From Paenibacillus sp. Soil787 (GTDB taxonomy: Bacteria > Bacillota > Bacilli > Paenibacillales > NBRC-103111), in assembly GCF_001429545.1 (NCBI RefSeq), contig NZ_LMSP01000047.1:1829-65828 (forward strand): 64,000 nucleotides of DNA, given 5' to 3'. Positions 1 through 60,665 of this stretch are shown piece after piece. A program made the position numbers and the translations under genes. Numbering within the stretch: position 1 is the stretch's first letter; each line of letters starts with the position of its first letter. The notes beneath the pieces are model-generated. The model had not been told where the DNA came from and made no database searches. It saw only the letters and a list, made by a program, of their open reading frames with translations.

Positions 1-136
1 AATATACCACATCAGCCTATTCGATTGCAAGAACTTTTTTTTAATTTCTTTCGTTCTTTCGTTCGACCGCCGAAGCGACAAGGAGTAATATAACAAATCT
101 AAAAGTAGAATGCAAGCTTTTATTTTCATTTAATAA

Positions 137-45529: not shown

Positions 45530-46753
45530 ATGAGTTTGTTTGATGATGATTTTTATTCCACCAAAAGGTCCAGGCAGCGCCAGGATAATTGGCGTCCCAA
45601 AGGGACAGGGGCATTCACAAGCTTCGCGGGTCGCAGACGGAATGTGGCCCTCATTGCTGGAGTTGGCGGAGCGTTAGCCATGCTTTTGCTAGTCGGAATA
45701 GTAGGCGGCTTCGGGAAAAGTAATACATCTGGGGCTGCGCTTGCGATACCAGCTTCTGCGGTAAAAGCCGAGGCGCATCCGATGAACGGCAACGATTCCG
45801 TTGTGGCGGCAACGGAGAAAATAAAGCCTGCTGTGGTCAGCGTTATATCCTCGAAGAAAGATGATAAAGGGCAAGAGACCGGACTCGGGATCGGGTCGGG
45901 TGTTATTTTTGCAAGGAATGGTGAGAAAGTTCGAATTGTGACGAATAGTCACGTTGTTGAGAACGGGAACCAGTTCGAAATCGTTAATTTCCAAGGGGAG
46001 CATCGTAAAGCTACCCTGATCGGTCGCGATCGGATTACAGATCTGGCTGTGCTGGAAGCGGATGGAAAAGACATCAAAGTGCTTGCTGAATTCGGTGACT
46101 CCGAAACACTGCGAGCAGGAGAGATGGCTATAGCAGTAGGCAACCCGCTGGGACTTGGATTCTCGCCAACCGTTACACAAGGCATCATTTCTTCGCCAAA
46201 ACGTACGATACCGGTTTCGCTATCACGTGAAGGCACGGATTATGACTGGGAGATGGACGTTATCCAAACGGATGCGGCTATCAACCAAGGGAACAGCGGC
46301 GGACCTCTGGTGAATATCGAGGGCAAGGTTGTTGGAATTAATTCCATGAAGATATCGGATACGGGCGTGGAAGGGTTAGGTTTTGCCATTCCTATTAATA
46401 GTGTGAAGCCGATTATTGAGAGTTTGATCAAGGATCATAAGGTGAAAAGACCTTTGATGGGTGTTTCGACGCAGGAACTGCAAGCTTTTAAAGGGACAGA
46501 TGTATTAAAGCTCCCTGCAGATGTTAAGACTGGAGTTATCGTCTTCGATGTGTCGGGACCTGCCAAAGATGCGGGTCTTAAAGCGCAGGATGTCATTGTC
46601 CAATTGGATGACCGCAAGATTGACAGTACGATCTCGCTGCGGAAATATTTGTACAATGAGAAGAAGATTGGCGATAAGATCAGCGTAGTGTATTACCGTG
46701 GCGGTAAGAAGCTGAATGCGGTGGTTACGTTGGTTGAGTCGATGGATAAGTGA
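45530..46753 (+). CDS. htrA: HtrA-like serine protease
   Basis: The 407-residue protein has a cytoplasmic tail, one membrane helix (about 43-63), a trypsin-like protease domain with triad His in TNSHVVE, Asp in ITDLAVLE and Ser in GNSGGPL, and one C-terminal PDZ domain. It is the Bacillales YycK/HtrC type, a membrane-bound quality-control protease for secreted proteins, in its standard place after walJ. Confidence 0.95.
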   Translation: MSLFDDDFYSTKRSRQRQDNWRPKGTGAFTSFAGRRRNVALIAGVGGALAMLLLVGIVGGFGKSNTSGAALAIPASAVKAEAHPMNGNDSVVAATEKIKPAVVSVISSKKDDKGQETGLGIGSGVIFARNGEKVRIVTNSHVVENGNQFEIVNFQGEHRKATLIGRDRITDLAVLEADGKDIKVLAEFGDSETLRAGEMAIAVGNPLGLGFSPTVTQGIISSPKRTIPVSLSREGTDYDWEMDVIQTDAAINQGNSGGPLVNIEGKVVGINSMKISDTGVEGLGFAIPINSVKPIIESLIKDHKVKRPLMGVSTQELQAFKGTDVLKLPADVKTGVIVFDVSGPAKDAGLKAQDVIVQLDDRKIDSTISLRKYLYNEKKIGDKISVVYYRGGKKLNAVVTLVESMDK

Positions 46754-46820
46754 TAAAAGATGAGTGATAAGCTTGCTAAGATATGTGTGGATAGAAACAT
46801 TGCGGATGAGAGGTACTTGC

Positions 46821-46988
46821 ATGCATGTAGTTTGTAAAGATCATGTGGAAATCGCGATTGATGAGTTTGTTGATGAGTATGAGGAGGCTCCGGACATTGT
46901 GGATCTGCAGAAGACCCACTTCGCTAGTTGGGAGCCACCGACGCACTGCGAGCATTGCAAGGAGTTAGCGCGATTTCTAGTTGTATGA
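46821..46988 (+). CDS. CxxH/CxxC small protein
   Basis: The 55-residue protein begins MHVVCKDHVEIAIDEFVDEY and ends with HCEHCKELARFLVV. It therefore has the paired CKDH and CEHC motifs of the small CxxH/CxxC family found between htrA and rlmH in Bacillales. Zinc binding is likely; function is unknown. The start at 46821 has a GAGAGG ribosome site. Confidence 0.85.
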   Translation: MHVVCKDHVEIAIDEFVDEYEEAPDIVDLQKTHFASWEPPTHCEHCKELARFLVV

Positions 46989-47060
46989 GGGAGGCGGAGG
47001 CCTTCCTTTTTTGTTTGGGTTGGGAATGAAAGTAGAAATACCTTTACTGGATGAGTTTGA

Positions 47061-47242
47061 TTGGATTATATCCAATGATGTCTCATGACATCGGCGGTTG
47101 GAGTTAGTTCCATTGTATATAATACAGTGGAATATGTGGAAAATGGCTTAAAAGAGCTGATTTTGGAGCATTCTGTTGGATTATTTCCAATGAAAGCGGG
47201 CAAATAAGATGAATGAGCTCGATTTGATTGTATTTTATCCAA
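47061..47242. repeat. Four copies of a TTGGA...TCCAA palindromic motif
   Basis: TTGGATTATATCCAA (47061), TTGGAGTTAGTTCCA (47099), TTGGATTATTTCCAA (47176) and TTGTATTTTATCCAA (47228) lie in the 282-base gap before rlmH. Each is a 15-base near-palindrome. A larger inverted repeat, TTCCATTGTA/TACAGTGGAA, lies at 47108-47132. Confidence 0.75.
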
Positions 47243-47270
47243 TGGATCAAATGAGGGGAGATTGTCGGTT

Positions 47271-47750
47271 ATGCATATACAGATTTTAACCGTTGGGAAA
47301 TTGAAGGAGCGCTATCTCGTGGACGGGATCGCGGAGTATGTGAAGCGCCTTGGGCCGTATGCCAAGGTGCAGATGATAGAGGTGCCGGATGAGAAGGCAC
47401 CGGAGAACATGAGCCCTGCTGAGGAGCAGCAGGTGCGTGTGAAGGAGGGCGAGCGGCTGTTGGCCAAGCTCGCTGCAGACGTGTACGTCGTGGCACTGGC
47501 CATCGACGGCGAGATGTGGACGAGCGAGCAGCTGGCAGGCTCGCTCGACAAGCTGGCCACCTACGGGCGGAGCCAGGTGGCCTTCGTGATCGGCGGCTCG
47601 CTGGGGCTATCTAGCGAGGTGCTGCGCCGTGCGGATATGCGGCTGTCTTTTGGCCGCATGACGCTGCCGCACCAGCTGATGCGGCTGGTGCTGGTGGAGC
47701 AGATTTATCGCGCGATGCGGATAAATCGGGGGGAACCTTATCATAAGTAG
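47271..47750 (+). CDS. rlmH: 23S rRNA (pseudouridine(1915)-N(3))-methyltransferase RlmH
   Basis: RlmH methylates pseudouridine 1915 in helix 69 of 23S rRNA. The 159-residue SPOUT protein shows [20 protein letters not shown] and [20 protein letters not shown], with the C-terminal RGEPYHK. ATG at 47271 gives exactly the B. subtilis length. The gene is much richer in G and C at third positions than its neighbours. Confidence 0.96.
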
Positions 47751-47877
47751 GGCGAATTTTCCAAACAAAGGCAGAAGAAAGAGAGGAACAGTTTAGCCTT
47801 GATTCTGATTTATGTGTATGGATGACAAGCACCTTTTTTTACGTGGTAACATTGAAATTCCTATAACAGGCTATCGA

Positions 47878-48753
47878 TTAAGCAGACTGTTTCTGTTTTA
47901 ACTCCACTATTAATGCATGGAGTTGTTCTGTGGCGAGCCCATGAAGCACTAATCGAAATCCGGCGCGAAGCGTAGAGAGCGGGACCATCGGGTGCTTATT
48001 GTTGATCAATGCCAGCCTGTCATTGCTGCCGATCACTTTGGAGGCAAGAATCCCAATCGTTTCATCAAGTTGCAAGGAATTCGTGGCCCGCCAAAAATCG
48101 TTATCTGTCAGAAAAAACTGGTAGACTGGGGTAAAACACTCGATAGCTGTCATGAGATCAAGAAAATTGGACCATCGATCAGGCATCTGTTCAATAGGGA
48201 TGGGGCTTGAAGTAATGGCATCAAAATTAAGCCGCTCCTGCTTGGTCACTTCGATGTTTTTCTCACGGATTTGTTTATTCAAATTTATTACAAAATTGTA
48301 TAAATTGAGGTCATGAATGAGAAACAAATCGTCTTTAACCGGTTCGAGATTCATCGGCTTCAGAGGATTCATCTCTACATGGACACCCGGAATGTTATCA
48401 CGGATGAATTGCAGTACTTCAGAACCAAGATAAAAATGCCGAAGAATCATATAATTGGCATCTGGACTAACAAACGTTTTCATGCCCCAATACAAGAAAC
48501 GATGCAGCATTTTAGATGAAGTGAATGCTTTCGGGAAAATGATTTTGTATAGCTGGAAGAGTATAATCAGCAGCCGAGAAAGCGGCCTCAAAACCGGAAG
48601 CAGAAATTGTCTGGATTTACTCGAGCAGTCCTTTAAATAGGAGGCCTTCGCTTCTTCGTTAAATGGAATGCTTTGATCAAGGTAGATGGCAAGGAACGGA
48701 TTAGGATCTTGCTTATCATGCGGCATGTTCTTAAAATAGTCGGCCTGGCTCAT
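47878..48753 (-). CDS. Uncharacterised protein paired with the KAS III-diiron fusion
   Basis: The 291-residue protein has no domain I can name. It contains one hydrophobic stretch (PLSRLLIILFQLYKIIF, about 57-73) that could be a membrane-associated helix, several Tyr/Phe-rich motifs (ILRHFYLGSEVLQFIRDN) and a soluble C-terminal half. It overlaps the upstream gene by four bases (ATGA) and is therefore co-translated with it. Its conserved pairing with such fusions in other genomes is something I believe but cannot check here. A role in the same lipid-related pathway is inference. Confidence 0.75.
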   Translation of the reverse strand: MSQADYFKNMPHDKQDPNPFLAIYLDQSIPFNEEAKASYLKDCSSKSRQFLLPVLRPLSRLLIILFQLYKIIFPKAFTSSKMLHRFLYWGMKTFVSPDANYMILRHFYLGSEVLQFIRDNIPGVHVEMNPLKPMNLEPVKDDLFLIHDLNLYNFVINLNKQIREKNIEVTKQERLNFDAITSSPIPIEQMPDRWSNFLDLMTAIECFTPVYQFFLTDNDFWRATNSLQLDETIGILASKVIGSNDRLALINNKHPMVPLSTLRAGFRLVLHGLATEQLHALIVELKQKQSA

Positions 48754-50618
48754 ATGTTCCCCAACTCCTCTAATTGTAATAAATACAATCGTGCTGTGGT
48801 TTTCGCGGTCTTCACAATCCGTTCGGCAATTTCCATTGTAAGCATCGGATGTTGAATGCCAGCTTCAAGACGCTCAAAATGTTTTTCATCCGAGTCGCTA
48901 TGATATAGTAAAAATGATACTTGATCGTCGTTTAAGCTGAGTTGATCACGGATTGATTCCCCCCAGTACCTCGCCATACGACACCCAAGACCTTCAATAA
49001 TCCACATCGCACCCATAAGATCAACAGGATTTTCGCGGCTTGCCCGCTGAAACAGATAGGCGGACAGTGCTTCGCTGCCGATATTTTTCTCACCGGATTG
49101 AATATCTGCAAGATTGCCTCCAACAGCCACGTAATTGCGTTCCAATATTTGAAAGTCACGGTGTTCGTCGCGGGCATGGGCGATAAACATGGAGCGCAGC
49201 TCGATATGCTCAATCGCAATGTAAGAGGCTGCGCGTGCAATCCACTGGGAACCGTCAATCACCTGTTGCCGAATGTTTTCCATGAGCAGCATATAATCTT
49301 CAAGTGTAAATTTGCCCCTGTACAGCTTATGAATGATTGGAACGTGAGCAAGCTTTTGTTCAAAATCAATCCATATGTTGACTAACTGCCTTACTAAATG
49401 AGACTGAACCAAATTGGAATTATCAAATTCCAAATGTGGCGCTTCTGGCTGCCGTTCCATGTATTCGGTGACCGTCCTGTTACTTGTGCCAACTACAGTT
49501 AATAACATATACGAGGTCTGAAATCTTCCGCTCTCTGGAACCATGCAAAGCACTTTTTCGCCCGGTTTCAGATGCCCTTCGTTAAACAATTCCTCCAGCA
49601 TAATATAAATAGAGGCAGCGCCTGTATTGCCTTTCGTATATAGGTTTGTAAACCATTTGTGTGCAGGAATGGTCATCCCGCCAAGCTGCATGAGACGGAA
49701 AATTTCGTCACGAAAATAATGGGAGGAGTAGTGACACACCATCCAATCGATAGTAGTAGGATTCACTTTTCCTTCTTCCACGAGTTCAAAAAAACGTTTC
49801 ACACCGACTTTCGGCATTTCGCCCACAAGGCGAATGTCCTGTTTCAAATTGATTGCCCCATCATCTGCCGCTTCATGGATGGAAGAATAATCAAGCCAAC
49901 CGGTTTGATTTTCTTTAGAACCCTCTTTATTAATGCCTGCGTACATACAAGTGTCGTATAGATTGGCGTAAGATTTATTGTCTATCCATTCAATTTTGAG
50001 GGACAAACCATGATCGCTTGGCTTATTCTGAAGCACGGCGGCACCCGCGCCATCCGATAACATAAACCGAAGGAAATCAGTATCAAAAGGAATCGGATGA
50101 TCCATGAATTTGGCCTGCGCTTCAAAGCGAGTATGTTTGAATACGCGGCTTGGAAACTCGCTGGCACAGGAGACGGCAGCTTTCTTCTCACCAGATTGTA
50201 CCTGCAGGAAAGCATTTTTGATCGCTTGCATACCGCTGCCGCAGACGCCATGATGTGTCGCAATTTCCATGACGGGCAGGCCGGTTTCGGCATGAACCAT
50301 ACTGGCAAAACCGGGCACCAACAGGTCGCCCTGGGTCGTACCAACAGCCAGAAAGTCTACTTGGTTAAATAAATCGTCGTGATTCCGCTCAAGCGCATCG
50401 CGAATCGCGTTGGTTGCCATTTCTGCATTAGAGTATAGGCTTTTTTGATCTTTATCTATGGCGTAATGACGATATCGAATTTTGTTTTGATCAAGAATGC
50501 GCCGCATAGATTTCGAGCTTTTTCCGCCTATTCTTCCGAGGTATTCCTCCATTTCCTCGTTATCGATGGGCGTACCCGGCAAGAACTTCCCGATACTTGT
50601 TATATAAACGGAATTCAT
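48750..50618 (-). CDS. Ketoacyl-ACP synthase III fused to a heme-oxygenase-like diiron oxidase
   Basis: The 622-residue protein has two parts. Residues 1-380 are a FabH-type thiolase fold: Cys126 in HHGVCGSGMQ, His297 or His300 in MVCHYSSHY, and Asn331 in KGNTGAAS form the triad. Residues 400-622 match the iron-containing redox enzyme (HDO) family, with HARDEHRDF at 481-489 and DSDEKHFE at 575-582 supplying likely iron ligands. KAS III condenses acyl-CoA with malonyl-ACP or acts as an acyltransferase. HDO enzymes oxidise or cleave fatty acids and amino acids, UndA and SznF being known examples. AAAGGAG ribosome site. The product is unknown; the next gene is translationally coupled. Confidence 0.85.
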   Translation of the reverse strand: MNSVYITSIGKFLPGTPIDNEEMEEYLGRIGGKSSKSMRRILDQNKIRYRHYAIDKDQKSLYSNAEMATNAIRDALERNHDDLFNQVDFLAVGTTQGDLLVPGFASMVHAETGLPVMEIATHHGVCGSGMQAIKNAFLQVQSGEKKAAVSCASEFPSRVFKHTRFEAQAKFMDHPIPFDTDFLRFMLSDGAGAAVLQNKPSDHGLSLKIEWIDNKSYANLYDTCMYAGINKEGSKENQTGWLDYSSIHEAADDGAINLKQDIRLVGEMPKVGVKRFFELVEEGKVNPTTIDWMVCHYSSHYFRDEIFRLMQLGGMTIPAHKWFTNLYTKGNTGAASIYIMLEELFNEGHLKPGEKVLCMVPESGRFQTSYMLLTVVGTSNRTVTEYMERQPEAPHLEFDNSNLVQSHLVRQLVNIWIDFEQKLAHVPIIHKLYRGKFTLEDYMLLMENIRQQVIDGSQWIARAASYIAIEHIELRSMFIAHARDEHRDFQILERNYVAVGGNLADIQSGEKNIGSEALSAYLFQRASRENPVDLMGAMWIIEGLGCRMARYWGESIRDQLSLNDDQVSFLLYHSDSDEKHFERLEAGIQHPMLTMEIAERIVKTAKTTARLYLLQLEELGNI

Positions 50619-50647
50619 GGGAACTCTCCTTTGTGGGAAATTTTTTT

Positions 50648-50692
50648 GTACTATAAACTATCATCGTCTATACCAGGTTAATTTTATAGTAC
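50648..50692. promoter_or_regulatory. 10-bp inverted repeat in the promoter region of the KAS III operon
   Basis: GTACTATAAA (50648-50657) and TTTATAGTAC (50683-50692) are perfect inverted copies 25 bases apart, 30 bases upstream of the KAS III start. Further TAGTAC motifs lie at 50688 and 50703. It could be an operator; no matching regulator is known to me. Confidence 0.5.
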
Positions 50693-50723
50693 TAAGTTAT
50701 TCTAGTACCCTACATAATTACAA

Positions 50724-50762
50724 AAAGGAGTTAAACCAGGTTCAACTGGCTTAGCTCCTTCT
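50724..50762 (-). terminator. Minus-strand terminator-like hairpin upstream of the KAS III operon
   Basis: AAGGAG.TAA.CCAG pairs with CTGG.TTA.CTCCTT. On the minus strand it is followed by TTTTTGT. It would stop leftward transcription entering the KAS III operon from the RiPP side. The rest of the 50619-51037 gap shows only the motifs listed here and a short ORF. Confidence 0.65.
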
Positions 50763-50905
50763 TCTCATTCAGGGTTATGCGATTAATCGTGCCGTAAGTA
50801 ACCGTTTCAGCTGGTGAAGAGAAGCAGATTGCCAATAAAAAGTTTTTAGGATGAGCAATACAATATAGGCATTTAGATCAGTAACAAGAGCGGAGCTGAG
50901 TTCAT

Positions 50906-51022
50906 ATGTTGTCATGGGGTACTCGAATAAATTGGCGGATCTCGCAGGGGAATTTCCTAATTATCTTGTTTCTGTTCTTCTTACCAGTGACAGAGTATGC
51001 TGCCAGCACAACAATTTATTAA
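50906..51022 (+). CDS. Possible 38-residue hydrophobic peptide upstream of the RiPP precursor
   Basis: An ATG at 50906 opens 38 codons encoding MLSWGTRINWRISQ followed by a strongly hydrophobic stretch (FLIILFLFFLPVTEYAAS). A GGAG lies about ten bases upstream. It ends 15 bases before the precursor start. It looks like a single-span or signal-like peptide; it could be a leader ORF, a small membrane component or chance. Confidence 0.35.
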   Translation: MLSWGTRINWRISQGNFLIILFLFFLPVTEYAASTTIY

Positions 51023-51037
51023 TCGGAGGTTTGAAAA

Positions 51038-51319
51038 ATGAATGATTTCAAAAATGATTTACAGAAGTTGAATGTTTCCGAGTTCAAGGCGAGCGAGGCG
51101 ACACCTTGGAACGCTCAAAGCCAGCAAGATGCTCGATTGTGCGTCTTCAGTTGCGTCAACTTGAATTGTTTCAATTGCATTAATTGCTTCAGTTGCATCA
51201 ACTTGAATTGTTTCAATTGTCACCAATGCCACAACTGTCATAACTGTCATAACTGTCACAATTGCCACAACTGCCACAACTGCCATAATTGTCACAACTG
51301 CCACCGTGGAGGACAATGA
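51038..51319 (+). CDS. TOMM/RiPP precursor peptide, heterocycloanthracin/sonorensin type
   Basis: The 93-residue peptide has a leader of about 34 residues (MNDFKNDLQKLNVSEFKASE, ATPWNAQ) and a Cys-rich core with 17 cysteines from Cys35 to Cys88. The first half of the core is a duplicated block resembling CFSCxNLNCFNC; the second is a tandem of CHQ, eight CHN and a final CHR, ending HRGGQ. In this family cysteines are cyclised and oxidised to thiazoles by the YcaO/ThiF/SagB enzymes, which are encoded directly downstream. The repeat is 9 bp at DNA level with silent variation (TGT/TGC, CAC/CAT, AAC/AAT). GGAGG ribosome site at ideal spacing. Antibacterial activity is inferred from relatives. Confidence 0.93.
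   Translation: MNDFKNDLQKLNVSEFKASEATPWNAQSQQDARLCVFSCVNLNCFNCINCFSCINLNCFNCHQCHNCHNCHNCHNCHNCHNCHNCHNCHRGGQ
51218..51306 (+). repeat. 9-bp coding tandem repeat (Cys-His-Asn)
   Basis: About ten consecutive TGY-CAY-AAY-type units encode the Cys-His-Asn tandem of the precursor. Synonymous differences between units show the array is maintained at protein level rather than being a very recent expansion. Confidence 0.9.
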
Positions 51320-51399
51320 GGTGGTTTTTGTTGATAATGCAACGTTTATGCCCGTTGTTTCTAGCTTCCATACGGAAACAGTGACTACTTAATGAGAAG

Positions 51400-51440
51400 A
51401 GGAAAGCCCCTGCAGCAACATTGCCCAGGGGCTTTTTCAT
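51400..51440 (+). terminator. Strong terminator between the precursor and the maturation genes
   Basis: AAAGCCCCTG pairs perfectly with CAGGGGCTTT around a 14-base loop and is followed by TTTTT. It probably gives much more precursor mRNA than maturation-gene mRNA. Confidence 0.9.
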
Positions 51441-51569
51441 GCCTATTTTAGAAGGGGACTTCACTACATTAGCTGTAGGGGCTTTCCTTAAAGAATAAGA
51501 CATGAGGGACAAATAGCTGTACATAAGATTATTTGTGAAGAGTTGGGGTAGATCGGGAGGAGGAATAGC

Positions 51570-53531
51570 ATGACAAATTTGAACCCTTCGATGCGACTAA
51601 AGGTGAAAAGGGATACGTTTTTTCTCCCTAATCCAAACGGTAGTGTGTATTTTCGAAATAATATAAGCTCGTTCCGTATGGAAGGAGAAATGATCGATCA
51701 ATGGATTGAAAAACTGATACCGATATTCAACGGGGAGCATAGTTTGGAGGATTTGACAGACGGATTGCCGGACCAACATCGGAACCAGGTAAATAGAATC
51801 GCAGAAATGTTGTATCACAATGGATTTGTAAGGGATGTGAGCCAAGATACTCCACATGAATTGCCGCAAAAGGCTCTCAAAAAGTATGCTTCTCAAATTG
51901 AATTTTTGGATAATTTCGGTAATTCCGGTGCGTATCGGTTTCAGTCTTATCGTCAGGCCAAAGTATTAGCGGTCGGCTCTGGTCCATTATTGATCTCGGC
52001 AGTTTCTGCGCTGCTTGCATCCGGATTGCCCAAGTTTCATGTGCTGGTGTCGGGCTCAGAGCCGACAGATCGGCAACGGATGTTAGAACTGGCGGCACAT
52101 GCCCGTAAAACGGATCCCGAGGTTGCAATAGAGGAGGTTACCCTGCAGAAGGAGGGGGGTAGCAGATGGCGGGAGGCTGTAAGGCCGTTTGATTCGATTT
52201 TATTTGTGTCACGAGAGGGTGATATCGAGGAACTGCGGGTTCTTCATGCGGTTTGCAGGGAGGAGGAAAAGGTGTTTCTTCCCGCGGTAATTCTGCAACA
52301 GGTGGGTCTGGCGGGTCCGTTGGTGCATCCGGACATTGAAGGATGCTGGGAGTCAGCATGGCGCAGCATACATGAATCCGCGATTTGTAAAGACCCTCAG
52401 CTGCACACCTTTTCTTCTACAGCCGGAGCGATGTTAGCGAATGTGATTGTATTTGAATTATTTAAGAAGATTACGGGAGCGAACGATTCGAGGCAAAGTA
52501 ATCAATTCTTCCTGCTTAATCTGGAAACTTTGGAAGGAAGATGGCATTGGTTCATGCCCCATCCGCTTGTGACCGGACGTACCGGGGCGGAATGGATTCA
52601 CGATTTCGATCAGCAGCTCGAACGAAGATCAAGCAAAAGTGAAAACGGATTGCTTCCTTATTTCAGCCGGTTGACATCGGTGGAATCAGGGATTTTTCAT
52701 ATTTGGGAGGAGGGGGACTTAAAGCAGCTGCCTCTCTCTCAGTGTCGCGTTCAGGCAGTCGATCCGCTGTCTGATGGGCCGGCTAGGCTGCTGGAGGGCA
52801 TTGTTTGTAACGAATTGACGCATGAGGGAGCTAGACGTGAAGCAGGGCTGTCCGGGATTGAAGCGTATGTGTCGCGAATGGCCGGACTGCTCGTTTCGAC
52901 GTTTCCTTCTCATCAGGAATCAGAGGGCAGCAGGATAGAGCCGCAGGAATTTATCGGCGTCGGAGCGGGAGAAACGGTTGCGGAAGGTATTGGCCGAGCG
53001 CTGCAAAAGTGTTTGGCCGAGGTGCTGGGTAAGCAACTGGCGTATCAGTTACCCTCTGTCATTCGAGTACAGTTGTCTGCGTTAGAAGATAAACACTGCC
53101 AGTTTTATTTACAGGCTTTGACGACGATGGAGGGAGCACCAATGATTGGCATGGGGAAGGAAGTCTCCGGATTCCCCGTGATATGGGTCGGTACGAGTGA
53201 TCGCTGGTATGGCGGTGTAGGCTTGAATGTAACCCTGGCGTTGCGGGATGCTTTGCAACAGGCTCTGTTAGAGGCACAAAACCAAACGGCTTGCTTCACA
53301 TCACAAGTGTTGAAGGTTTCGTCCGTGCGTCTGTCAGAACAATTGCCGCTAAGTCTTAAGATCCCCTCATGTGAAGTGACGGCAAAATCGGAGGTTCTTC
53401 AGTCCGCCTTACAGGTCTTAGAACGGAACCGTAAGCGGCTCTTGGTGTTCGATCTGGCAGTAGAACCGTTTTTGAAAGAGGAAATGGCAGGGGTATTTGG
53501 CGTGTTGCTGCGAGAGGAGGGATCCCGGTGA
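51570..53531 (+). CDS. TOMM maturation protein, ocin-ThiF-like leader-binding F protein
   Basis: The 653-residue protein matches the putative thiazole-containing bacteriocin maturation (ocin_ThiF_like) family. A ThiF/E1-like Rossmann core begins VLAVGSGPLLISAVSALLAS near residue 132; the N-terminal 110 residues and the Cys-poor C-terminal half are family-specific. In heterocycloanthracin the equivalent F protein binds the precursor leader and delivers it to the cyclodehydratase. The GGGAGGAGG ribosome site is strong. It overlaps the YcaO gene by four bases (GTGA). Confidence 0.9.
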   Translation: MTNLNPSMRLKVKRDTFFLPNPNGSVYFRNNISSFRMEGEMIDQWIEKLIPIFNGEHSLEDLTDGLPDQHRNQVNRIAEMLYHNGFVRDVSQDTPHELPQKALKKYASQIEFLDNFGNSGAYRFQSYRQAKVLAVGSGPLLISAVSALLASGLPKFHVLVSGSEPTDRQRMLELAAHARKTDPEVAIEEVTLQKEGGSRWREAVRPFDSILFVSREGDIEELRVLHAVCREEEKVFLPAVILQQVGLAGPLVHPDIEGCWESAWRSIHESAICKDPQLHTFSSTAGAMLANVIVFELFKKITGANDSRQSNQFFLLNLETLEGRWHWFMPHPLVTGRTGAEWIHDFDQQLERRSSKSENGLLPYFSRLTSVESGIFHIWEEGDLKQLPLSQCRVQAVDPLSDGPARLLEGIVCNELTHEGARREAGLSGIEAYVSRMAGLLVSTFPSHQESEGSRIEPQEFIGVGAGETVAEGIGRALQKCLAEVLGKQLAYQLPSVIRVQLSALEDKHCQFYLQALTTMEGAPMIGMGKEVSGFPVIWVGTSDRWYGGVGLNVTLALRDALQQALLEAQNQTACFTSQVLKVSSVRLSEQLPLSLKIPSCEVTAKSEVLQSALQVLERNRKRLLVFDLAVEPFLKEEMAGVFGVLLREEGSR

Positions 53532-55471
53532 GCGCTACCGTAATGATTGTGGGAGATGGGGTGTTGGCGGACTTCGTGTACGAAGAACTTTCAGCCCAGT
53601 TCGAGGTTGTACGTCAGATCGATTTCGAGGCAGGAGTATCGGAAGCGGTGACTTTAGCGCTGGTGCTGCACGATGCTTGGCATCCTGCTGTTCATCAAAA
53701 GGCGGAAAAGCTGCTGCAGCCAGCCGGCATCCCGTGGCTTCGTGGCTTCGTTTCATTCGGCGAGGGCGTGATCGGGCCTCTAGTTCGTCCGGGTAAACGA
53801 GGATGCTCTCAGTGTGCAGACACCCGGCGTCTTATGGCGGGACGCGAGCGCAGGGAGATGCGGGAGCTGCAGATGAGGCTGGCGGCGTACGCGAGAATGC
53901 CGAGTGATGCTTGGGCGTCGCGTACAGGGCTTTTACAGGTTGCTCACCTTCTGGTGGTTGAGGCACTGGGGATGTTACAAGGCAAACGGGTTCATTCGGA
54001 AGGGAATATGTTTCTGATCAACCTGAAATCGCTGGAGAGTACACTTCACTTCTTTCTCCCTGACCCGCTGTGTCCGGTTTGCAGCCGATTGCCTGACGAT
54101 TCATCGACAGCAGCCCGCATTTCGCTGCAACCAAGTCCGAAGATCAGCTCAGACAGTTACCGCTCCCGCACGATGGATGATCTGAATAAAGTCCTGACCA
54201 AGGACTACCTGGATTACCGGACCGGCTTTTTGAATGGAAAAATGGTTGACCTCGATTCGCCATTTGCCGATGTGAGTGTAAATCTGCCGTTATTCAGTGA
54301 GGACGTCGGAACGGCAGGTCGGACTAATTCCTATGCGGTGAGCGAGTCCACCGCCATCTTGGAGGGATTGGAGCGGTACTGCGGTCTGGCCCCTCGAGGT
54401 AAACGGACGGTAGTCCATGGCAGCCTCCGCAATCTGGAAGATCAAGCGCTCGACCCAGTCAAATTAGGGATGCACACGAAAGAACAGTATGCTCAGCCGG
54501 GGTTTCCCTTCACAACGTTCGATCCCGACCTCCCAATCGATTGGGTATGGGGATATTCGTTTTTGCAGGAGCGTCCGATTCTGGTTCCAGAGCAGCTCGC
54601 CTATTACAGCATGGGCTGCGGGCAAGGATTCGTGTTCGAGTCTTCTAATGGATGCGCGTTAGGAGGGAGTTTGGAGGAGGCTATTTTTTACGGCATTTTG
54701 GAAGTGGTAGAGAGAGATTCGTTTCTGATTACTTGGTATGCGCAGCTGTCTCTTCCACGCCTTGACCCTTATTCCGCTAACGACAGAGAATTGCAATTGA
54801 TGATCGATCGTTTGCGAGCCGTGGCGGGGTTTGATGTGCATTTCTTTAATTCGACGATGGAGCACGGGATTCCAAGTGTTTGGGGGATAGCGAAGAACAG
54901 GAAACAAACAGGAGTGAATCTCATCTGTGCGGCCGGAGCTCATCCTGATCCGGTACGGGCGATGAAAGGTGCGGTTCACGAGTTGGCCGGCATGGTACTG
55001 AATCTTGATAAGAAATTTGAAGCAAATCAGGAGGAATATGTTCGGATGTTTCACGATTCCTCCCTGGTGCAGCAGATGGAGGATCATTCACTGCTGTACG
55101 GTTTGCCGCAAGCGCAGGAGCGCCTGCAGTTTTTGCTGGATGAAAATCGACCATTGCGAAAGCTTGAAGAGGAATTCAAGCGGAAGGCAAGGCATGCTGA
55201 TTTAACGGACGAACTGAAGGATATTCTTAAGGCATTCCGTCGATTGAATCTCGATGTGATCGTAGTGGATGTGACAGCGCCAGAAATTAGTCGAAATGGA
55301 CTTCATTGCGTGAAAGTGCTGATCCCAGGAATGCTGCCGATGACATTCGGACATCACTTTACTCGCGTGGCCGGGTTGGAGCGGGTATTGAAGGTACCGA
55401 TGGAACTCGGATATGCGAAGCAGCTGCTCCGGCTAGAGGATCTCAATCCATACCCGCATCCGTTTCCATAG
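53528..55471 (+). CDS. Fused TOMM cyclodehydratase (C-like and YcaO domains)
   Basis: This 647-residue enzyme forms azolines from cysteines using ATP. The N-terminal 190 residues are a short E1-like/cyclodehydratase segment with a probable zinc site made of Cys93, Cys96, Cys182 and Cys185 (CSQC and CPVC). The YcaO domain follows, with ATP-binding acidic residues in SESTAILEGLER (Glu273, Glu279, Glu282) and EEAIFYGILEVVERD (about 383-396). It ends NPYPHPFP, the proline-rich C-terminus expected of azoline-forming YcaO proteins. Start GTG, coupled to the F protein. Confidence 0.93.
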   Translation: MSATVMIVGDGVLADFVYEELSAQFEVVRQIDFEAGVSEAVTLALVLHDAWHPAVHQKAEKLLQPAGIPWLRGFVSFGEGVIGPLVRPGKRGCSQCADTRRLMAGRERREMRELQMRLAAYARMPSDAWASRTGLLQVAHLLVVEALGMLQGKRVHSEGNMFLINLKSLESTLHFFLPDPLCPVCSRLPDDSSTAARISLQPSPKISSDSYRSRTMDDLNKVLTKDYLDYRTGFLNGKMVDLDSPFADVSVNLPLFSEDVGTAGRTNSYAVSESTAILEGLERYCGLAPRGKRTVVHGSLRNLEDQALDPVKLGMHTKEQYAQPGFPFTTFDPDLPIDWVWGYSFLQERPILVPEQLAYYSMGCGQGFVFESSNGCALGGSLEEAIFYGILEVVERDSFLITWYAQLSLPRLDPYSANDRELQLMIDRLRAVAGFDVHFFNSTMEHGIPSVWGIAKNRKQTGVNLICAAGAHPDPVRAMKGAVHELAGMVLNLDKKFEANQEEYVRMFHDSSLVQQMEDHSLLYGLPQAQERLQFLLDENRPLRKLEEEFKRKARHADLTDELKDILKAFRRLNLDVIVVDVTAPEISRNGLHCVKVLIPGMLPMTFGHHFTRVAGLERVLKVPMELGYAKQLLRLEDLNPYPHPFP

Positions 55472-55573
55472 GTTTTAACGATGGTATCAATTATTGAAAC
55501 GTAGAGTAGTTCACACTCTTGTTCAAAATATAAGAATTTAGATGTTTCACATAATAAGTCGGCTATATTTCTA

Positions 55574-55614
55574 GATAAACGCTCCCGTCCTGTGAGGACG
55601 GCGTAGCCGTTTAT
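55574..55614 (+). repeat. Dispersed intergenic palindromic repeat (copy C)
   Basis: GATAAACGCTCCCGTCCTGT then GAGGACGGCGTAGCCGTTTAT is the clearest palindromic copy: AAACG....CGTCC pairs with GGACG....CGTTT. It lies in the gap between the YcaO and SagB-like genes, just before the SagB ribosome site. Confidence 0.7.
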
Positions 55615-55635
55615 TTTGTATCAGGAGGGAGAAGC

Positions 55636-57216
55636 ATGAGTCTGGAGGCATTTCTGCACAATCTGCATTATGACATTGACAAGACCAAACCACCGGACTC
55701 GGTGGTGGATTGGGAAGACGGACCGCTTGCGTATAAGCTCTACCGCGGTTTGCCGGTGGTTCCGTTATCTCCGGAAGTGCCGCTGACGCTCGTAGGCGGT
55801 GAAGCGCCGGTGAAACCCGACCTTCGTCGAATGGGTCATTTTCTCTGGTACATCTTCGGTCTCACTCAATTGTCACAGTCCGTTCCTGCTCCGAATTCCA
55901 TGGTACAAAACATCGGTCTGATGCAGTTGTACCGGCGGTTTGTTCCCTCTGGGGGAGCGTTATATCCGAATGAATTATACGTGTATCTGAAGCTAGAGGA
56001 TTTGCCAGCTGGGGTCTATCATTATGATGTGGCGCACCACCGTTTGGTGTTGCTGCGCGAAGGCAACTTCGATTCCTATTTAGCTCGGGTTCTTGGCAAT
56101 CGCTGTGACGTGTCGACTTGCTTTGGTGCTGTCTTTGTATCGACTATGTTTTGGAAAAACTTCTTTAAATACAATAACTTTTCCTACCGCCTGCAAGGAC
56201 TGGATGCGGGTGCGTTGATCGGGCAGCTCTTGGAAGTGGCGAAACGGTTCGGCTTTGCGTCGGGCGTATATTTCCAGTTCCTTGATCGGGCGGTGAATCA
56301 TCTTCTCGGATTATCGGAACAAGAGGAGAGTGTATATGCGGTGATTCCGCTGTCGGTGGAGCCTGCGCCCCCTTGCTTTGCCAATAGAAATGAGGGAGAG
56401 GGGGGAAGCACCGCCACCGAATTATGCCGGGAGTTGAGGGCGGTTCAGCATGATCACTACGTCCGGTCTCGGAGGGTCAAGGAGTATCCGATGCTAATCA
56501 AGATGAATGAAGCATCCCTATTGGAATCGTATCGGCCGCTGCGGCGAATTGGGGAAGAGAAGATCGTTTACTGCGAGGATCAAGTGGTGGTTCTGCCCCG
56601 CGTGAAGCGGTTATTGTATGATTTAGCGTCAGTAAGCCGAGAGCGCTTTTCGCCGGACGGTGATTTTGTTATGGGCAAGGTAAGCCAAGAGCAGCTGGCC
56701 TTGCTGCTGCAGGAGGCAACGGCCTCCTTCAGGTATCGTAATGATTTGGATGGAGTACAGGAGAACCCCGTTTCACGTGTCTCACTATATGGCTGCTTCT
56801 ATAACGTTGATGGCATTCCGGACGGCGCATATCAGTATGACAGCGCTGCTCATACGCTACGGCGGGTACGTCATGGAAATCATCGGCTCAGGCTGCAGCA
56901 GGGAATGCCTTCCGACAACGTGAACCTCTTCCAAGTTCCGCTATGCTTTCATGTGGCAGGGGACAAGGATCATCTCACGGCCGCCCTGGGGCTTAGGGGA
57001 TACCGCATTCAGCAGATGGAAGCGGGGATGCTGGTGCAGCGTTTACTGTTGGCGGCATCTGCACTCGGGATAGGGGGGCATCCGCTCCTCGGATTTGATG
57101 CCAAATTGTGTAATGAGATCTACAAGATGACTTCGCAAGGAGTAACCAGCCTGATCCAAATCCCGGTTGGACCTTATCGTCCTTGTCCCCGATTGGGAGG
57201 AGGATTGCACGGCTAG
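55636..57216 (+). CDS. SagB-type azoline dehydrogenase with two nitroreductase-like domains
   Basis: The 526-residue FMN protein oxidises azolines to azoles. Two SagB/nitroreductase-like halves are visible: the first has VPSGGALYPNELYVYLKLE and LPAGVYHYDVAHHRLVLL (about 95-245), the second VSRVSLYGCFYNVDGIPDGA then YQYDSAAHTLRRV (about 370-515). Catalytic residues cannot be assigned by eye. It has a GGAGGG ribosome site and is followed by a terminator, closing the TOMM cluster. Confidence 0.9.
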   Translation: MSLEAFLHNLHYDIDKTKPPDSVVDWEDGPLAYKLYRGLPVVPLSPEVPLTLVGGEAPVKPDLRRMGHFLWYIFGLTQLSQSVPAPNSMVQNIGLMQLYRRFVPSGGALYPNELYVYLKLEDLPAGVYHYDVAHHRLVLLREGNFDSYLARVLGNRCDVSTCFGAVFVSTMFWKNFFKYNNFSYRLQGLDAGALIGQLLEVAKRFGFASGVYFQFLDRAVNHLLGLSEQEESVYAVIPLSVEPAPPCFANRNEGEGGSTATELCRELRAVQHDHYVRSRRVKEYPMLIKMNEASLLESYRPLRRIGEEKIVYCEDQVVVLPRVKRLLYDLASVSRERFSPDGDFVMGKVSQEQLALLLQEATASFRYRNDLDGVQENPVSRVSLYGCFYNVDGIPDGAYQYDSAAHTLRRVRHGNHRLRLQQGMPSDNVNLFQVPLCFHVAGDKDHLTAALGLRGYRIQQMEAGMLVQRLLLAASALGIGGHPLLGFDAKLCNEIYKMTSQGVTSLIQIPVGPYRPCPRLGGGLHG

Positions 57217-57251
57217 AACAGGCATGAGTGAAAGCTCTTATAAACCAAAAA

Positions 57252-57285
57252 AGGACCGTCAGGATGAACTTTCCTGACGGTTTTG
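57252..57285 (+). terminator. Terminator of the TOMM cluster
   Basis: CCGTCAGGA and TCCTGACGG pair perfectly around a seven-base loop, followed by TTTTG, and A-rich sequence precedes it. Confidence 0.9.
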
Positions 57286-57381
57286 CGCTTCTTTGGGTAC
57301 GAAAACTTGGAGGATATATTGTACACTTTTCTTTGTGATATAATTATTCTAGTTGTTGAGCATATAAATAGGAGAGACTAT

Positions 57382-58023
57382 ATGGAACTGTACACATCAT
57401 TTTTATTGCTGAGCCTAACTTCATTCTTCACACTCATTAATCCGCTTGCCATTATGCCAATCTTTATGTCGATGACGGCCGACCTTGAATCCCAGAAGAA
57501 AGTCCGTACTGCTCGTAAAGCAGTAGTTGTTTCATTTTTTACATTGCTCATTTTTTCAACAACTGGCGAATGGGTATTTCACTTCTTCAACATTTCAATT
57601 AACAGTTTAAAGATTGTCGGTGGGGTTATTTTCATTTTAATGGGACAGGACATGCTTCAGGCACGACTTGTTCGTACAAAGGTTGATAAAGCGGATGTCG
57701 ATGCCTATGTAAATGATATTTCCATTACACCACTGGCTATTCCCATGATTTGTGGTCCTGGTGCAATTACGAATGGAATTGTTCTTATGGAATCTACGAC
57801 AAATTTTATGGAAAAGATTGTATTAATCGTTGTAATTGCGTTTGTACTTATGCTTACATACATTGTCCTTGTTAACTCAGCTAAAATTTATCGATGGATT
57901 GGCCCAACAGGTAATAATGTGCTAATGCGTTTAATGGGTCTAATTGTTATGGTGATTGCCATTGAGTTTATGGTAAGTGGAATTACCCCGATTATCCGGC
58001 AAATTCTGAAAATTTCGCCCTAA
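57382..58023 (+). CDS. MarC/YhgN family membrane protein
   Basis: The 213-residue protein has six membrane segments and the MarC signature FFTLINPLAIMPIF near the start and PLAIPMICGPGAI in the middle. The family is widespread; an early claim of multidrug resistance was not upheld and its transport substrate is unknown. An ATG at 57382 with a TAGGAGA site is preferred over the longer open frame. It follows the TOMM cluster but has its own upstream -10-like TATAAT, so a link to export is only a possibility. Confidence 0.88.
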   Translation: MELYTSFLLLSLTSFFTLINPLAIMPIFMSMTADLESQKKVRTARKAVVVSFFTLLIFSTTGEWVFHFFNISINSLKIVGGVIFILMGQDMLQARLVRTKVDKADVDAYVNDISITPLAIPMICGPGAITNGIVLMESTTNFMEKIVLIVVIAFVLMLTYIVLVNSAKIYRWIGPTGNNVLMRLMGLIVMVIAIEFMVSGITPIIRQILKISP

Positions 58024-58111
58024 AGTCACTGAAAAAATCATTCTCTTTTAAGTCATTGAAACGTAGAAAAGCCCTTTTGAAGAATAGGTCATTCCAAAGG
58101 CAGGGATCAGC

Positions 58112-58381
58112 ATGTATTGGTTATTTTTAATAATAATATTGATAATCGTTCTAATTTTTTTGTTCCTGTTTGCACGCAAGACTAGAGATAAACTGGAGAC
58201 AAGAAAAGTAATTCAATTATCACTTAAACAAAAAAAGAATTCGGTGAATAAACAAACGTGTAGTTTTTGTCGCAAAAAAGCAAAACGGCTTTATTTTTAT
58301 TCATCAGAAAGCGGTCAGGTACTAGGCGTATGTGATCAATGTAAGCCACAAGCGGAGCGACGAGCTTTAATGAGAATATAA
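58112..58381 (+). CDS. Small membrane protein with a CxxC-CxxC zinc ribbon
   Basis: The 89-residue protein has one N-terminal membrane helix (YWLFLIIILIIVLIFLFLF), a basic stretch and a C-terminal zinc-ribbon-like segment with CSFC and CDQC. Topology with the ribbon in the cytoplasm is likely from the positive residues. No family name is recognised. Confidence 0.7.
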   Translation: MYWLFLIIILIIVLIFLFLFARKTRDKLETRKVIQLSLKQKKNSVNKQTCSFCRKKAKRLYFYSSESGQVLGVCDQCKPQAERRALMRI

Positions 58382-58397
58382 TCAATTAAATTTAAAG

Positions 58398-58437
58398 AAC
58401 GGGTCGGGAGAGCTTTTTCCTGGCCTGTTCGTTTTGT
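58398..58437 (+). terminator. Hairpin after the zinc-ribbon gene
   Basis: GAACGGGTC and GGCCTGTTC pair with G-U pairs, followed by GTTTTGT. Confidence 0.6.
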
Positions 58438-58447
58438 GTTGAATAAA

Positions 58448-58488
58448 GAAAATGACTGGACAAGTATAAACTTATCCAGCCATTTGTT
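58448..58488 (-). terminator. Terminator of the DUF3231 gene
   Basis: CTGGA.AAGT and ACTT.TCCAG pair, with T-rich sequence on the minus-strand side. Confidence 0.7.
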
Positions 58489-58509
58489 GTATACCGACAC
58501 CATTAAATT

Positions 58510-59064
58510 TTAAGTTGATGTTTTTGGGGAGCCAGGTGGAATGAAGAACGGCGGTAATTTAATCCACCCGCGTTTCATCATTAATTGTTTTAATTTCCCC
58601 CCCAACATCACTTTTTCAGCTTGGAATTGAAGAAATATTAAACCGAAATCGGTCCGGATCGATTCTGCATTGGCACCTGCGGCACGGAGAATCAAACTAA
58701 CGATTTTAAAGGATAATTCGTTGGCAAGCACTTCATCCGTCATTTTAACACCAAGCGGAATACTGTTAGGATCTGATTGCGGCATATCTTCATGAGCAGG
58801 CGGTAAAGTTATTCCTTCCTCGAGCATGAAATCATAGAGACGTTCCCGTTGACTAAGGTTGAGTTCCAAATCTTCCTTGAGCACTGCTCTTAGATCTTCA
58901 TCATTGGTGGTGTTTATACCCGCTTGAACAGTTACTTTGGCTACTTCAAGACCTGCTAAGTAAATCCAACAAGCCATCACCTCACCTACATGAAGAGGGT
59001 GGTGTTTTTCTTCATCTGTCAAAGACTTAATTGTAGTAATTGCTGCTTCCAAAATACCAACCAT
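58510..59064 (-). CDS. DUF3231 family protein
   Basis: The 184-residue all-helical protein (HPLHVGEVMACWIYLAGLEV, ERLYDFMLEEGITLP) matches DUF3231, a ferritin-like family abundant in spore-forming Bacillales. Its function is not established; several members are expressed in sporulation. A GGGAGGG-type ribosome site precedes the ATG. It is transcribed against its neighbours. Confidence 0.85.
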   Translation of the reverse strand: MVGILEAAITTIKSLTDEEKHHPLHVGEVMACWIYLAGLEVAKVTVQAGINTTNDEDLRAVLKEDLELNLSQRERLYDFMLEEGITLPPAHEDMPQSDPNSIPLGVKMTDEVLANELSFKIVSLILRAAGANAESIRTDFGLIFLQFQAEKVMLGGKLKQLMMKRGWIKLPPFFIPPGSPKTST

Positions 59065-59351
59065 TTGGAGCCCTCCCGAAATTGTTATTTATTTGCATAT
59101 TGTTTACTTGGTAGTCTTTTTTATTCATACTAAAAGTGCGCCGCTAATCGGAAGGAGAGACAGATGTGCAAACCATTATGATCGTTCGTTATGTCCTGTG
59201 ATATGGAGTTCGCGTGCAAATAAACCGAAGCACAAATGACGGATAATTTTTTTTCCAAATGATGGGCCATGTATGTTACTATAAAGCATTAGAATTTAAG
59301 TTCATGGGTAGCGGATAAAATTTGACCCTTTAAGTAGGTGCGAATCGAAAG

Positions 59352-60665
59352 ATGCAGAATTTAGTCAAAAACGAAAGCTTGCAAATGATCGTAATCGCTA
59401 TAGCTACGGCCACCGGCGCACAATTCAAGATCAATCCCTTTAGCAACGACTATTTTCGCATTGGTCTTGGGGTTAGCATCTTTTTGTTTTTTTTATTGCT
59501 CATGCCGCATCTGCCCTATGTGAAAACAGGTATCCTAACGGGGATTCTTAGCATGATTGTTCAGGCTGGAGATTGGATCACTCACGTTCATTCCTATACG
59601 ATCCTGGAGAGCTTGCAGAATAATGTGGCTGCCGGTTGTTATTATGTCGTATTTGCGTTCGGCATGAGTAGGCTTCGACAAAGATTGAAAGAACTTCACC
59701 CCCTCATCTTAGGTGGATATATCGCGTTAATTGACTTCGCTTCTAATGAAACGGAGTTATTGTTGCGTGGGGTATTCCTCGGTACGAATACCTTTTATTT
59801 TGGAGAATGGTTCCTTATAATGGTCATAGCTGTAGTACGCAGTTATTTTGTAATCGGCCTATACAACAGCATTGTGATTAGTCAGATGCGGTTTCTACAC
59901 GCGGAGCAGGAAAAACGGATGGAGCAGATGCTGAACATCAATTCTGGTTTGTATGGGGAAGCCTTTTATTTGAAAAAAGCCATGGATACCATCGAGGGGA
60001 TTACCGCGGATAGCTATGATCTCTACCGGAAATTAAATGAGGATAATCTCAAAGGCTATAGTCAGCGTACGTTAGGAATTGCCCAACAAATCCATGAAGT
60101 GAAAAAGGATTCCCAACGTATTTTGGCAGGTTTATTGAAATTATTCGATAGTGAAGTTGTTGTTCAAATGAGTCTTTCGGAGATCATGCACTTTGTCGTA
60201 AAGGGAAATCAAGAATATAGTGAAATGCTAAAGAAAAAGATTATCATTGAAAAAGAACTGACATTTAATCAGAACACGACGCACTATGTGCCGTTGTTGA
60301 CGATCATAAATAATTTAGTTGCCAATGCGGTAGAAGCTATAGCGAAGAATGGAACGATACATATTCGGGTCTTTGAAAAAGAAAATGACGTTTATTTTAT
60401 TATTATAGATTCTGGGAAAGGAATTCCTGATCATAAGAAGGAACTTATTTTCGAACCTGGTTATACAACCAAATACAATGAAGATGGGATTGCAGCAACC
60501 GGGATCGGTCTTTCTCATGTGCGCGATATTGTTCTTTCCTTCGGGGGAAGTATCACAGTAGAATCATTAGAGAATGCAAGCGGTACGGAGTTTGTTGTAC
60601 GTCTCCCGTTAACAAGTCTAATTAAAGAGGGTAGAGTCGATGGCACTTTCCATTATGATCGTTGA
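59352..60665 (+). CDS. GlnK-like sensor histidine kinase
   Basis: The 437-residue protein has about five N-terminal membrane segments (residues 1-180) and a cytosolic kinase with HEVKKDSQRI (probable phospho-acceptor His248), NNLVANAVEAIAK, DSGKGIP and GIGLSHVRDIV. It resembles B. subtilis GlnK (YcbA), which with GlnL controls glutamine use. It overlaps the response-regulator gene by 26 bases. Confidence 0.88.
   Translation: MQNLVKNESLQMIVIAIATATGAQFKINPFSNDYFRIGLGVSIFLFFLLLMPHLPYVKTGILTGILSMIVQAGDWITHVHSYTILESLQNNVAAGCYYVVFAFGMSRLRQRLKELHPLILGGYIALIDFASNETELLLRGVFLGTNTFYFGEWFLIMVIAVVRSYFVIGLYNSIVISQMRFLHAEQEKRMEQMLNINSGLYGEAFYLKKAMDTIEGITADSYDLYRKLNEDNLKGYSQRTLGIAQQIHEVKKDSQRILAGLLKLFDSEVVVQMSLSEIMHFVVKGNQEYSEMLKKKIIIEKELTFNQNTTHYVPLLTIINNLVANAVEAIAKNGTIHIRVFEKENDVYFIIIDSGKGIPDHKKELIFEPGYTTKYNEDGIAATGIGLSHVRDIVLSFGGSITVESLENASGTEFVVRLPLTSLIKEGRVDGTFHYDR

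Follow-up and report, generated by a model that had tools for sequence, protein, structure and literature searches.

A Cys-His-Asn heterocycloanthracin precursor of Paenibacillus with a conserved sigma-K-type promoter: a putative azole peptide of late sporulation

On sequence grounds, a Cys-rich open reading frame of Paenibacillus sp. Soil787 is a heterocycloanthracin/sonorensin (HCA) precursor, encoded together with a complete HCA enzyme set. The class itself is known, and the most interesting result of our analysis is instead the sigma-K-type promoter that precedes the precursor and is conserved across much of the HCA family. Precursor, enzymes and promoter architecture can all be read from the DNA; that the product is an azole peptide of the late-sporulation mother cell, subsequently carried on the spore or freed at lysis, is the explanation that we consider reasonably probable. 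To our knowledge neither a structure nor a role has been settled for the heterocycloanthracins. They were proposed from genomes in 2009 (Haft, PMC2674419), and we found no late-sporulation role proposed for them in that paper, nor in the available portions of PMC6962202 and PMC9586298. Throughout, the window denotes the whole stretch of DNA that was analysed, 64,000 nt in length (GCF_001429545.1, contig NZ_LMSP01000047.1, positions 1,829 to 65,828 of the forward strand). The precursor gene is located as follows:

51038..51319, + strand: HCA/sonorensin-family precursor of 93 residues (TIGR03601, 43.4 bits; alignment with 17 relatives)

The ATG at 51038 is preceded by a GGAGG ribosome site, the score lies above the curated TIGR03601 cut-off of 35 bits, and the gene is the only precursor gene in its genome. 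The presumed leader, residues 1-34 (MNDFKNDLQKLNVSEFKASEATPWNAQSQQDARL), ends in ARL, and the core starts at Cys35. The initial annotation had described 17 Cys among 54 core residues and a Cys-His-Asn tandem in the second half of the core. Coordinates, frame and composition all proved correct, with the 17 Cys lying between Cys35 and residue 88 and the second half reading CHQ, then eight CHN, then CHR. Val, Phe or Ile follows Cys in the first block of the core and His follows it in the second; successive Cys stand three residues apart in 13 of 16 instances, giving the Cys-Xaa-Xaa repeat core of the TIGR03601 family, and Asn precedes Cys in 13 of 16 cases, the second half always having Asn or Gln at this position. 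Over its full 59 residues the core holds 10 His, 15 Asn and a single Arg, with neither Lys nor acidic residues. His is mostly uncharged near neutral pH, and because the core has only one Arg and no Lys, the polycationic product that had been envisaged is unsupported at such pH. The eight exact in-frame CHN units are written in five DNA spellings, and all of their pairwise differences (43 of 43) fall at third codon positions, which indicates that the protein repeat has been kept and not a DNA repeat alone. A period-9 DNA repeat is indeed present, but in light of these third-position-only differences, the family model score and homologous loci that share the leader and enzymes, we rejected a chance ORF or a DNA tandem repeat devoid of protein function, the probability of which we regard as negligible.

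Downstream of the precursor lie a putative terminator, a conserved intergenic block and three maturation genes:

51401..51437, + strand: intrinsic-terminator-like hairpin with a T-run, separating the precursor gene from the enzyme operon (folding energy of the 48 nt at 51394-51441, -21.5 kcal/mol)
51501..51531, + strand: conserved block CATGAGGGACAAATAGCTGTACATAAGATTA upstream of the enzyme operon (alignment of 19 loci)
51570..53531, + strand: TOMM F protein (ocin_ThiF_like) with an N-terminal RRE (TIGR03693, 769 bits, cut-off 561.9)
53528..55471, + strand: fused, N-terminally truncated C-D cyclodehydratase (YcaO) with a C-terminal PYPHPFP (TIGR03604, 415.1 bits; TIGR03882, 148.8 bits; PF02624)
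55636..57216, + strand: SagB-type azoline dehydrogenase with two nitroreductase-like halves (TIGR03605, 214.3 bits, cut-off 78.4)

The hairpin was not listed by a simple scan permitting loops of up to 8. Residues 12-90 of the F protein, corresponding to the RRE region, match PbtF (PDB 8t19, E 9.1e-7). The C-D protein exceeds the curated cut-offs of both TIGR03882 and TIGR03604, and compared with TruD/LynD (best E 2e-30) its alignment extends from the SNG...LEEAI...VERD stretch as far as the proline motif at the C-terminus. It is short of approximately 100 N-terminal residues (647 versus 775 residues in all), its residue 34 aligning with LynD 146 in a weak segment of 4.8 bits. The SagB-type protein matches 3eo7 (E 1.9e-22) and McbC (E 1.9e-5). 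According to the accessible part of Cox 2015 (PMC4603692), F, C-D and B are the only proteins present in all HCA clusters, and because F-dependent HCA chemistry has been reconstituted in vitro, as cited in the same part of that paper, we infer that the core is azole-modified here. With a TIGR03601 match above the cut-off and three matching maturation genes adjoining it, the original designation as a TOMM precursor is supported.

The system shares with the HCA/sonorensin class (TIGR03601) the precursor model, the leader, the Cys-Xaa-Xaa repeat, an RRE-bearing F, a truncated fused C-D and SagB, and its minimal F+CD+B set is that given in the available text of Cox 2015 (PMC4603692). It differs in its CHN/CFN core, the cores described being of the Cys-Gly-Gly, Cys-Ser and Cys-Trp-Ser types (PMC2674419; PMC4603692, available text), in the hydrophobic-to-His bipartition of that core, and in the location of the precursor, which adjoins the enzymes here, whereas most precursors of the B. 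cereus group are encoded away from them (PMC4603692, available text). Thiopeptide F systems of the PbtF type likewise have an RRE-bearing ThiF-like F that serves a truncated cyclodehydratase (PMC4603692, same portion), but in our case the core is linear and repetitive and no further gene cluster occurs among the widely shared neighbours. In the mechanism that we propose, the RRE of the F protein would bind the leader and present the core to the truncated cyclodehydratase, which would convert core Cys residues to thiazolines for oxidation by SagB to thiazoles, up to 17 in number. This would yield a linear poly-azole, hydrophobic in its N-terminal block and of His/Asn type in the C-terminal one. 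For the 59-residue core a monoisotopic mass of 6789.5 is calculated before modification, which full oxidation would lower by 340.4 Da.

The block upstream of the enzyme operon contains both AGGGACAAAT and CATAAGATTA in the alignment of 19 loci. We take AGGGACAAAT to be close to the SpoIIID consensus and CATAAGATTA to resemble a mother-cell -10 element, an assignment of regulators that is tentative. It is with moderate confidence that we suggest a mother-cell-type promoter belonging to the enzyme operon itself, by which the enzymes would be made first and their substrate later.

Searching genome contigs for relatives returned 19 loci, 18 of them from Paenibacillus and one spurious. The Caldilineaceae match (L020) was rejected as a low-complexity sequence whose 16 kb contain no match to the enzymes. 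Precursor, F, D and B occur in the same order in all 18 Paenibacillus loci. Neighbours were compared as ORFs of at least 70 residues up to roughly 8 kb away (roughly 7 kb on one side of L002) in these 18 loci and the window, and besides precursor and F/D/B no gene cluster was common to more than three of the 19, an ABC-type ATPase being among those found in three; nor did any exporter, protease or immunity gene prove to be widely shared in this comparison. KSIII/DUF6999 and MarC were rejected as cluster members, not being common to most relatives. Within the window, positions 47878-50618 (- strand) encode a StlD/DarB-like ketosynthase (PRK06816, 430.1 bits, cut-off 450) fused to a haem-oxygenase-like domain; the fusion adjoins a DUF6999 protein, and in L002 and L029 the match beside the precursor is confined to the first 153 codons of the fusion gene.

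Across 104 genomes of the family, the precursor alignment matched 68, F matched 80, and both matched 66. F is present in 66 of the 68 precursor-positive versus 14 of the 36 precursor-negative genomes (Fisher p 4e-11, ignoring descent; the 66/2/14/22 table, like the list of 131 sigK-weak genomes, was compiled by eye), and the two precursor-only genomes are weak partial matches. A Cys/His-rich, low-complexity sequence with a mother-cell-type promoter might also be an unmodified spore-coat protein, the azole enzymes acting on something else. However, the leader is conserved, the F-CD-B genes adjoin the precursor in 18 of 18 loci, F accompanies it in nearly all precursor-positive family genomes, and a single precursor gene is present in the genome of Soil787, leaving this explanation very unlikely.

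All but one of the 14 F-positive, precursor-negative family genomes (13/14) have only a second, RRE-poor F paralog or a fragmentary F. This paralog (L251:8202-9911, + strand; also in L252 and L253) lacks the greater part of the N-terminal RRE region, some 85-130 residues, and is arranged head-to-head with a divergent D protein (L251:6056-7726, - strand; about 61% identical), and no HCA-type precursor was seen near it in these three loci. A further locus, L050 (G023:C20:10719-12617), has a full-length F, no precursor match and a match to only the first 50 D residues; it is probably a decaying cluster.

HCA precursors are found in numerous spore-forming Bacilli, TIGR03601 matching 71 of 398 genomes in a class-wide sample. 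Two matches were treated as spurious: one from a separate search, in G011, which is under the cut-off and has an internal stop, no F and no hit by the precursor alignment, and one from the class sample, in G157, which is the weakest match there and has five internal stops. The locus L045 (G006) has a clear CHN precursor beside F that was missed by TIGR03601 and found by the precursor alignment, so the family model under-detects the CHN core type. Fetched loci only, at most 30 per search and not every positive genome, provided 101 precursor records that reduce to 68 distinct proteins, 39 from Paenibacillaceae and 29 from other Bacilli (29 of the 30 class-level loci gave a distinct precursor, L122 being the exception).

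The core had further been thought unlike the Cys-Gly-Gly and Cys-Trp-Ser types. Different it is, but it is not unique, as 23 of the 39 distinct fetched Paenibacillaceae precursors contain at least three CHN units and 29 contain at least one; L080, L085 and L088 have 12-13 units each, exceeding the eight of the window. None of the 29 distinct fetched precursors from other Bacilli has a CHN unit, so that CHN cores form a core type of the Paenibacillaceae. CFN/CSN spacers also occur outside Paenibacillaceae, and the CFN/CSN-type TIGR03601 precursors of other Bacilli (e.g. L098, L105, L110 and L112) share the Phe-Asn, Ser-Asn and Phe-Arg spacers of the first block here; in these four the promoter spacing is identical to that of the window, although they have no CHN unit. 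The CHN core was not found described in the searchable literature, including PMC2674419 and the accessible portions of PMC4603692, PMC7470986, PMC4544038, PMC7136475, PMC6962202, PMC9586298 and PMC12325987, with supplements and most subscription papers outside this scope, and the string 'CHNCHN' occurred only in papers whose titles and abstracts, the parts available, are unrelated. As judged from the letters of the DNA, then, the HCA system is real and complete, the class is known, and its core type is one that we did not find described in that literature.

DNA alignment revealed a conserved block upstream of 25 distinct precursors, and in the window it has the following elements:

50863..50874, + strand: GerE-like box ATATAGGCATTT, 12 of 12 positions agreeing with the consensus RWWTRGGYNNYY; conserved in relatives
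50884..50885, + strand: -35 dinucleotide AC, sigma-K-type, 21 nt downstream from where the box begins
50903..50911, + strand: -10 element CATATGTTG, 17 nt after AC

The composite at 50863-50911, which reads ATATAGGCATTT, 9 nt, AC, 17 nt and CATATGTTG, is the only exact match in the 64 kb. The GerE identity of the box rests on what we take to be the GerE consensus, RWWTRGGYNNYY, and the position of CATA inside the 10-nt sigma-K -10 element is likewise our assumption. The complete -10, CATANNNTA, is not found here, since CATATGTTG differs from it in the last base. In the B. subtilis sigma-K motif a -35 element of 5 nt is separated by 14-16 nt from a -10 element of 10 nt, and C at -35 position 4 tells sigma-K from sigma-E (PMC517825, accessible part); the discriminating C and the gap between the elements in our promoter agree with this published motif. 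A sigma-E promoter is not preferred because the -35 has AC rather than AT. We regard the precursor promoter as sigma-K-type, and do not claim membership in the sigma-K regulon as proven.

When at most one mismatch was permitted over box, AC and CATA at the fixed spacing (21, 17), which derives from Paenibacillus alone, the composite was found at 26 of the 39 Paenibacillaceae and 6 of the 29 other-Bacilli distinct precursors, the remaining 23 of the latter failing. Dinucleotide shuffles yielded 0 of 3900 and 1 of 2900, i.e. 1 of 6800 overall. The six (L094, L098, L105, L106, L110 and L112) belong to five family codes. Looser spacing (20-22 / 16-18) raised the counts to 27/39 and 19/29, the latter not strictly held-out since this spacing was set after inspecting the other-Bacilli sequences, with a passing member in seven of nine family codes; the corresponding rates among shuffles were 0.32% (1560 sequences) and 0.17% (1160 sequences), and not one of 193 further ORFs with 150 residues or more in 18 loci passed. 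Of the two spacing tests the fixed one is stricter but gives the clearer outcome. One family code accounts for 13 of the 29 other-Bacilli precursors and has a spacer of mostly 18, and all four precursors of another fail even the looser spacing. Two patterns were written before the other Bacilli were inspected: the exact GerE-like box, present at 23/39 Paenibacillaceae and 12/29 other-Bacilli precursors, and AC-15..18-CATANNNT alone, present at 39/39 and 9/29, the shuffles giving about 6% for each. The perfect AC-16..18-CATANNNTA occurs at only 5 of the 68 distinct HCA precursors, and with at most one mismatch at 51 of 68 versus 21% of shuffles.

Sporulation genes served as controls. The yabG gene, which is sigma-K dependent in B. 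subtilis, has AC-16/17-CATANNNTA in 27 of 30 fetched Paenibacillaceae loci (of 59 positive genomes), the Soil787 genome included, 26 of them with exactly 17 nt; by this strict sigma-K measure the HCA precursors fall far below yabG. The GerE-like composite was found at none of the 30 yabG loci with at most one mismatch. At CotX (30 loci of 43) the composite is likewise absent at up to one mismatch (0/30), a perfect box occurs at 3/30, and sigma-K elements with at most one mismatch occur at 16/30 versus 21% of shuffles; since the CotX promoters are without the composite, the GerE part of the argument is weaker than the sigma-K part. CotZ matched in none of the 30 genus genomes in which it was sought as a control. 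The precursor gene resembles sigma-K/GerE-controlled late coat genes in its GerE-like box and in the AC-17-CATA architecture of its promoter, as at yabG and gerE (the gerE of Soil787 itself has AC-17-CATAAACTA), and differs from them in encoding a RiPP precursor and in a -10 that ends in TG, not TA; its box geometry is unlike that of the CotX promoters tested. Forty stretches amounting to 800 kb of the 7.66 Mb genome contained 14 instances of the composite with one mismatch or none, one of them exact (L145), and none of these precedes an ORF of at least 50 residues with a ribosome site of at least four bases. A scan of these stretches plus the window for perfect sigma-K elements gave three ORFs of at least 50 residues with a ribosome site, one being murI-like by eye.

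The genome has an open sigK (C34:118258-118929), which is a strong match. In the 398-genome class sample strong sigK matches were found in 70 of 71 HCA-positive versus 197 of 327 HCA-negative genomes, an association confounded by descent, the sole HCA-positive exception being the match with five stops. Matches with best E-values up to about 2e-76 counted as strong and those from about 6e-37 as weak. The curated sigK cut-off is exceeded by only 177 of the 398 genomes; numerous matches of about 1e-78 lie below it and presumably represent split sigK genes, and the B. subtilis control lies below it as well. The gerE gene of Soil787 is itself split, with parts at C34 about 329302-329452 (L134:1471ff) and about 375153 (L246), some 45.7 kb apart. 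A serine-recombinase-like ORF (by eye; 329519-331088, - strand) lies beside the 5' part, which ends in ...NHISNVM, near the junction of the gin element of B. cereus ATCC10987 (PMC5595907, portion available), and a gerE-intervening element is probable in Paenibacillus. GerE would first need to be restored during sporulation, which counts against our preferred explanation.

The conserved sigma-K-type promoter, of which the initial annotation made no mention, suggests that the likely role of the peptide shifts toward a spore-associated product and away from an ordinary secreted antibiotic. Transcribed on its own from this promoter with its GerE-like activator box, the precursor would be a late-sporulation product of the mother cell, and the enzymes would come from their separate, mother-cell-like promoter. 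The leader would be removed by an unlinked protease. Since the neighbouring ORFs of at least 70 residues included no widely common exporter, protease or immunity gene, the product would most likely stay in the mother cell, to be deposited on the forming spore or released at mother-cell lysis; both the timing and this destination we infer from the promoter and the missing genes. A putative HCA-family gene and sporulation genes are both upregulated in B. cereus biofilm cells (PMC6962202, as far as its available text goes), which is compatible with a sporulation role and not specific to it.

The main rival is a conventional secreted TOMM bacteriocin, exported in stationary phase by an unlinked transporter and acting on the membranes of related Gram-positives, the promoter being merely a stationary-phase or sporulation-associated switch. 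It remains so in view of the bactericidal, membrane-permeabilising action reported for sonorensin (PMC4544038, accessible part); the naming of the family, the proposal of Haft 2009 (PMC2674419) and the hydrophobic first core block are all in keeping with it. We nevertheless think it unlikely, as no gene beyond precursor and enzymes recurs in more than three of the 19 loci, where even the ABC-type ATPase reaches only three, and the sigma-K-type promoter is conserved across families.

A second rival, which we rate lower still as rather improbable, is a metal-binding azole peptide whose His/Asn/thiazole block would chelate Zn, Cu or Ni, serving either for metal acquisition as a metallophore or as a metal store of the spore. 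Ten His alternate with predicted thiazoles, and each of the 25 distinct precursors tested has a core that runs from hydrophobic residues to His/Gln toward the C-terminus (rank statistic 0.94-1.00, reached by at most 6 of 2000 permutations), a trend that extends to sister cores with four-residue spacing. On the other hand, no metal gene cluster is widely common to the neighbourhoods, no Rfam RNA reached the gathering threshold in positions 46000-60000 of the window, and many other HCA core types have few or no His, so metal binding would hold only for the CHN core type.

Returning to the mother-cell peptide that we favour, the finding may apply well beyond this strain. At somewhat less than even odds, and hence tentatively, we propose that the whole HCA/sonorensin family, from Paenibacillus to other spore-forming Bacilli, comprises late-sporulation mother-cell poly-azoles without dedicated export or immunity, the product being laid on the spore or freed at lysis, with the CHN core as a His-rich, possibly metal- or pH-responsive form. 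This core would add a chemically distinct, His-rich poly-azole to the family. The sigma-K-type promoter would explain why HCA clusters lack export and immunity genes, it indicates when and where the product should be sought, namely in sporulating cultures, purified spores and mother-cell lysates, and its conservation makes the role of the HCAs testable with standard sporulation mutants.
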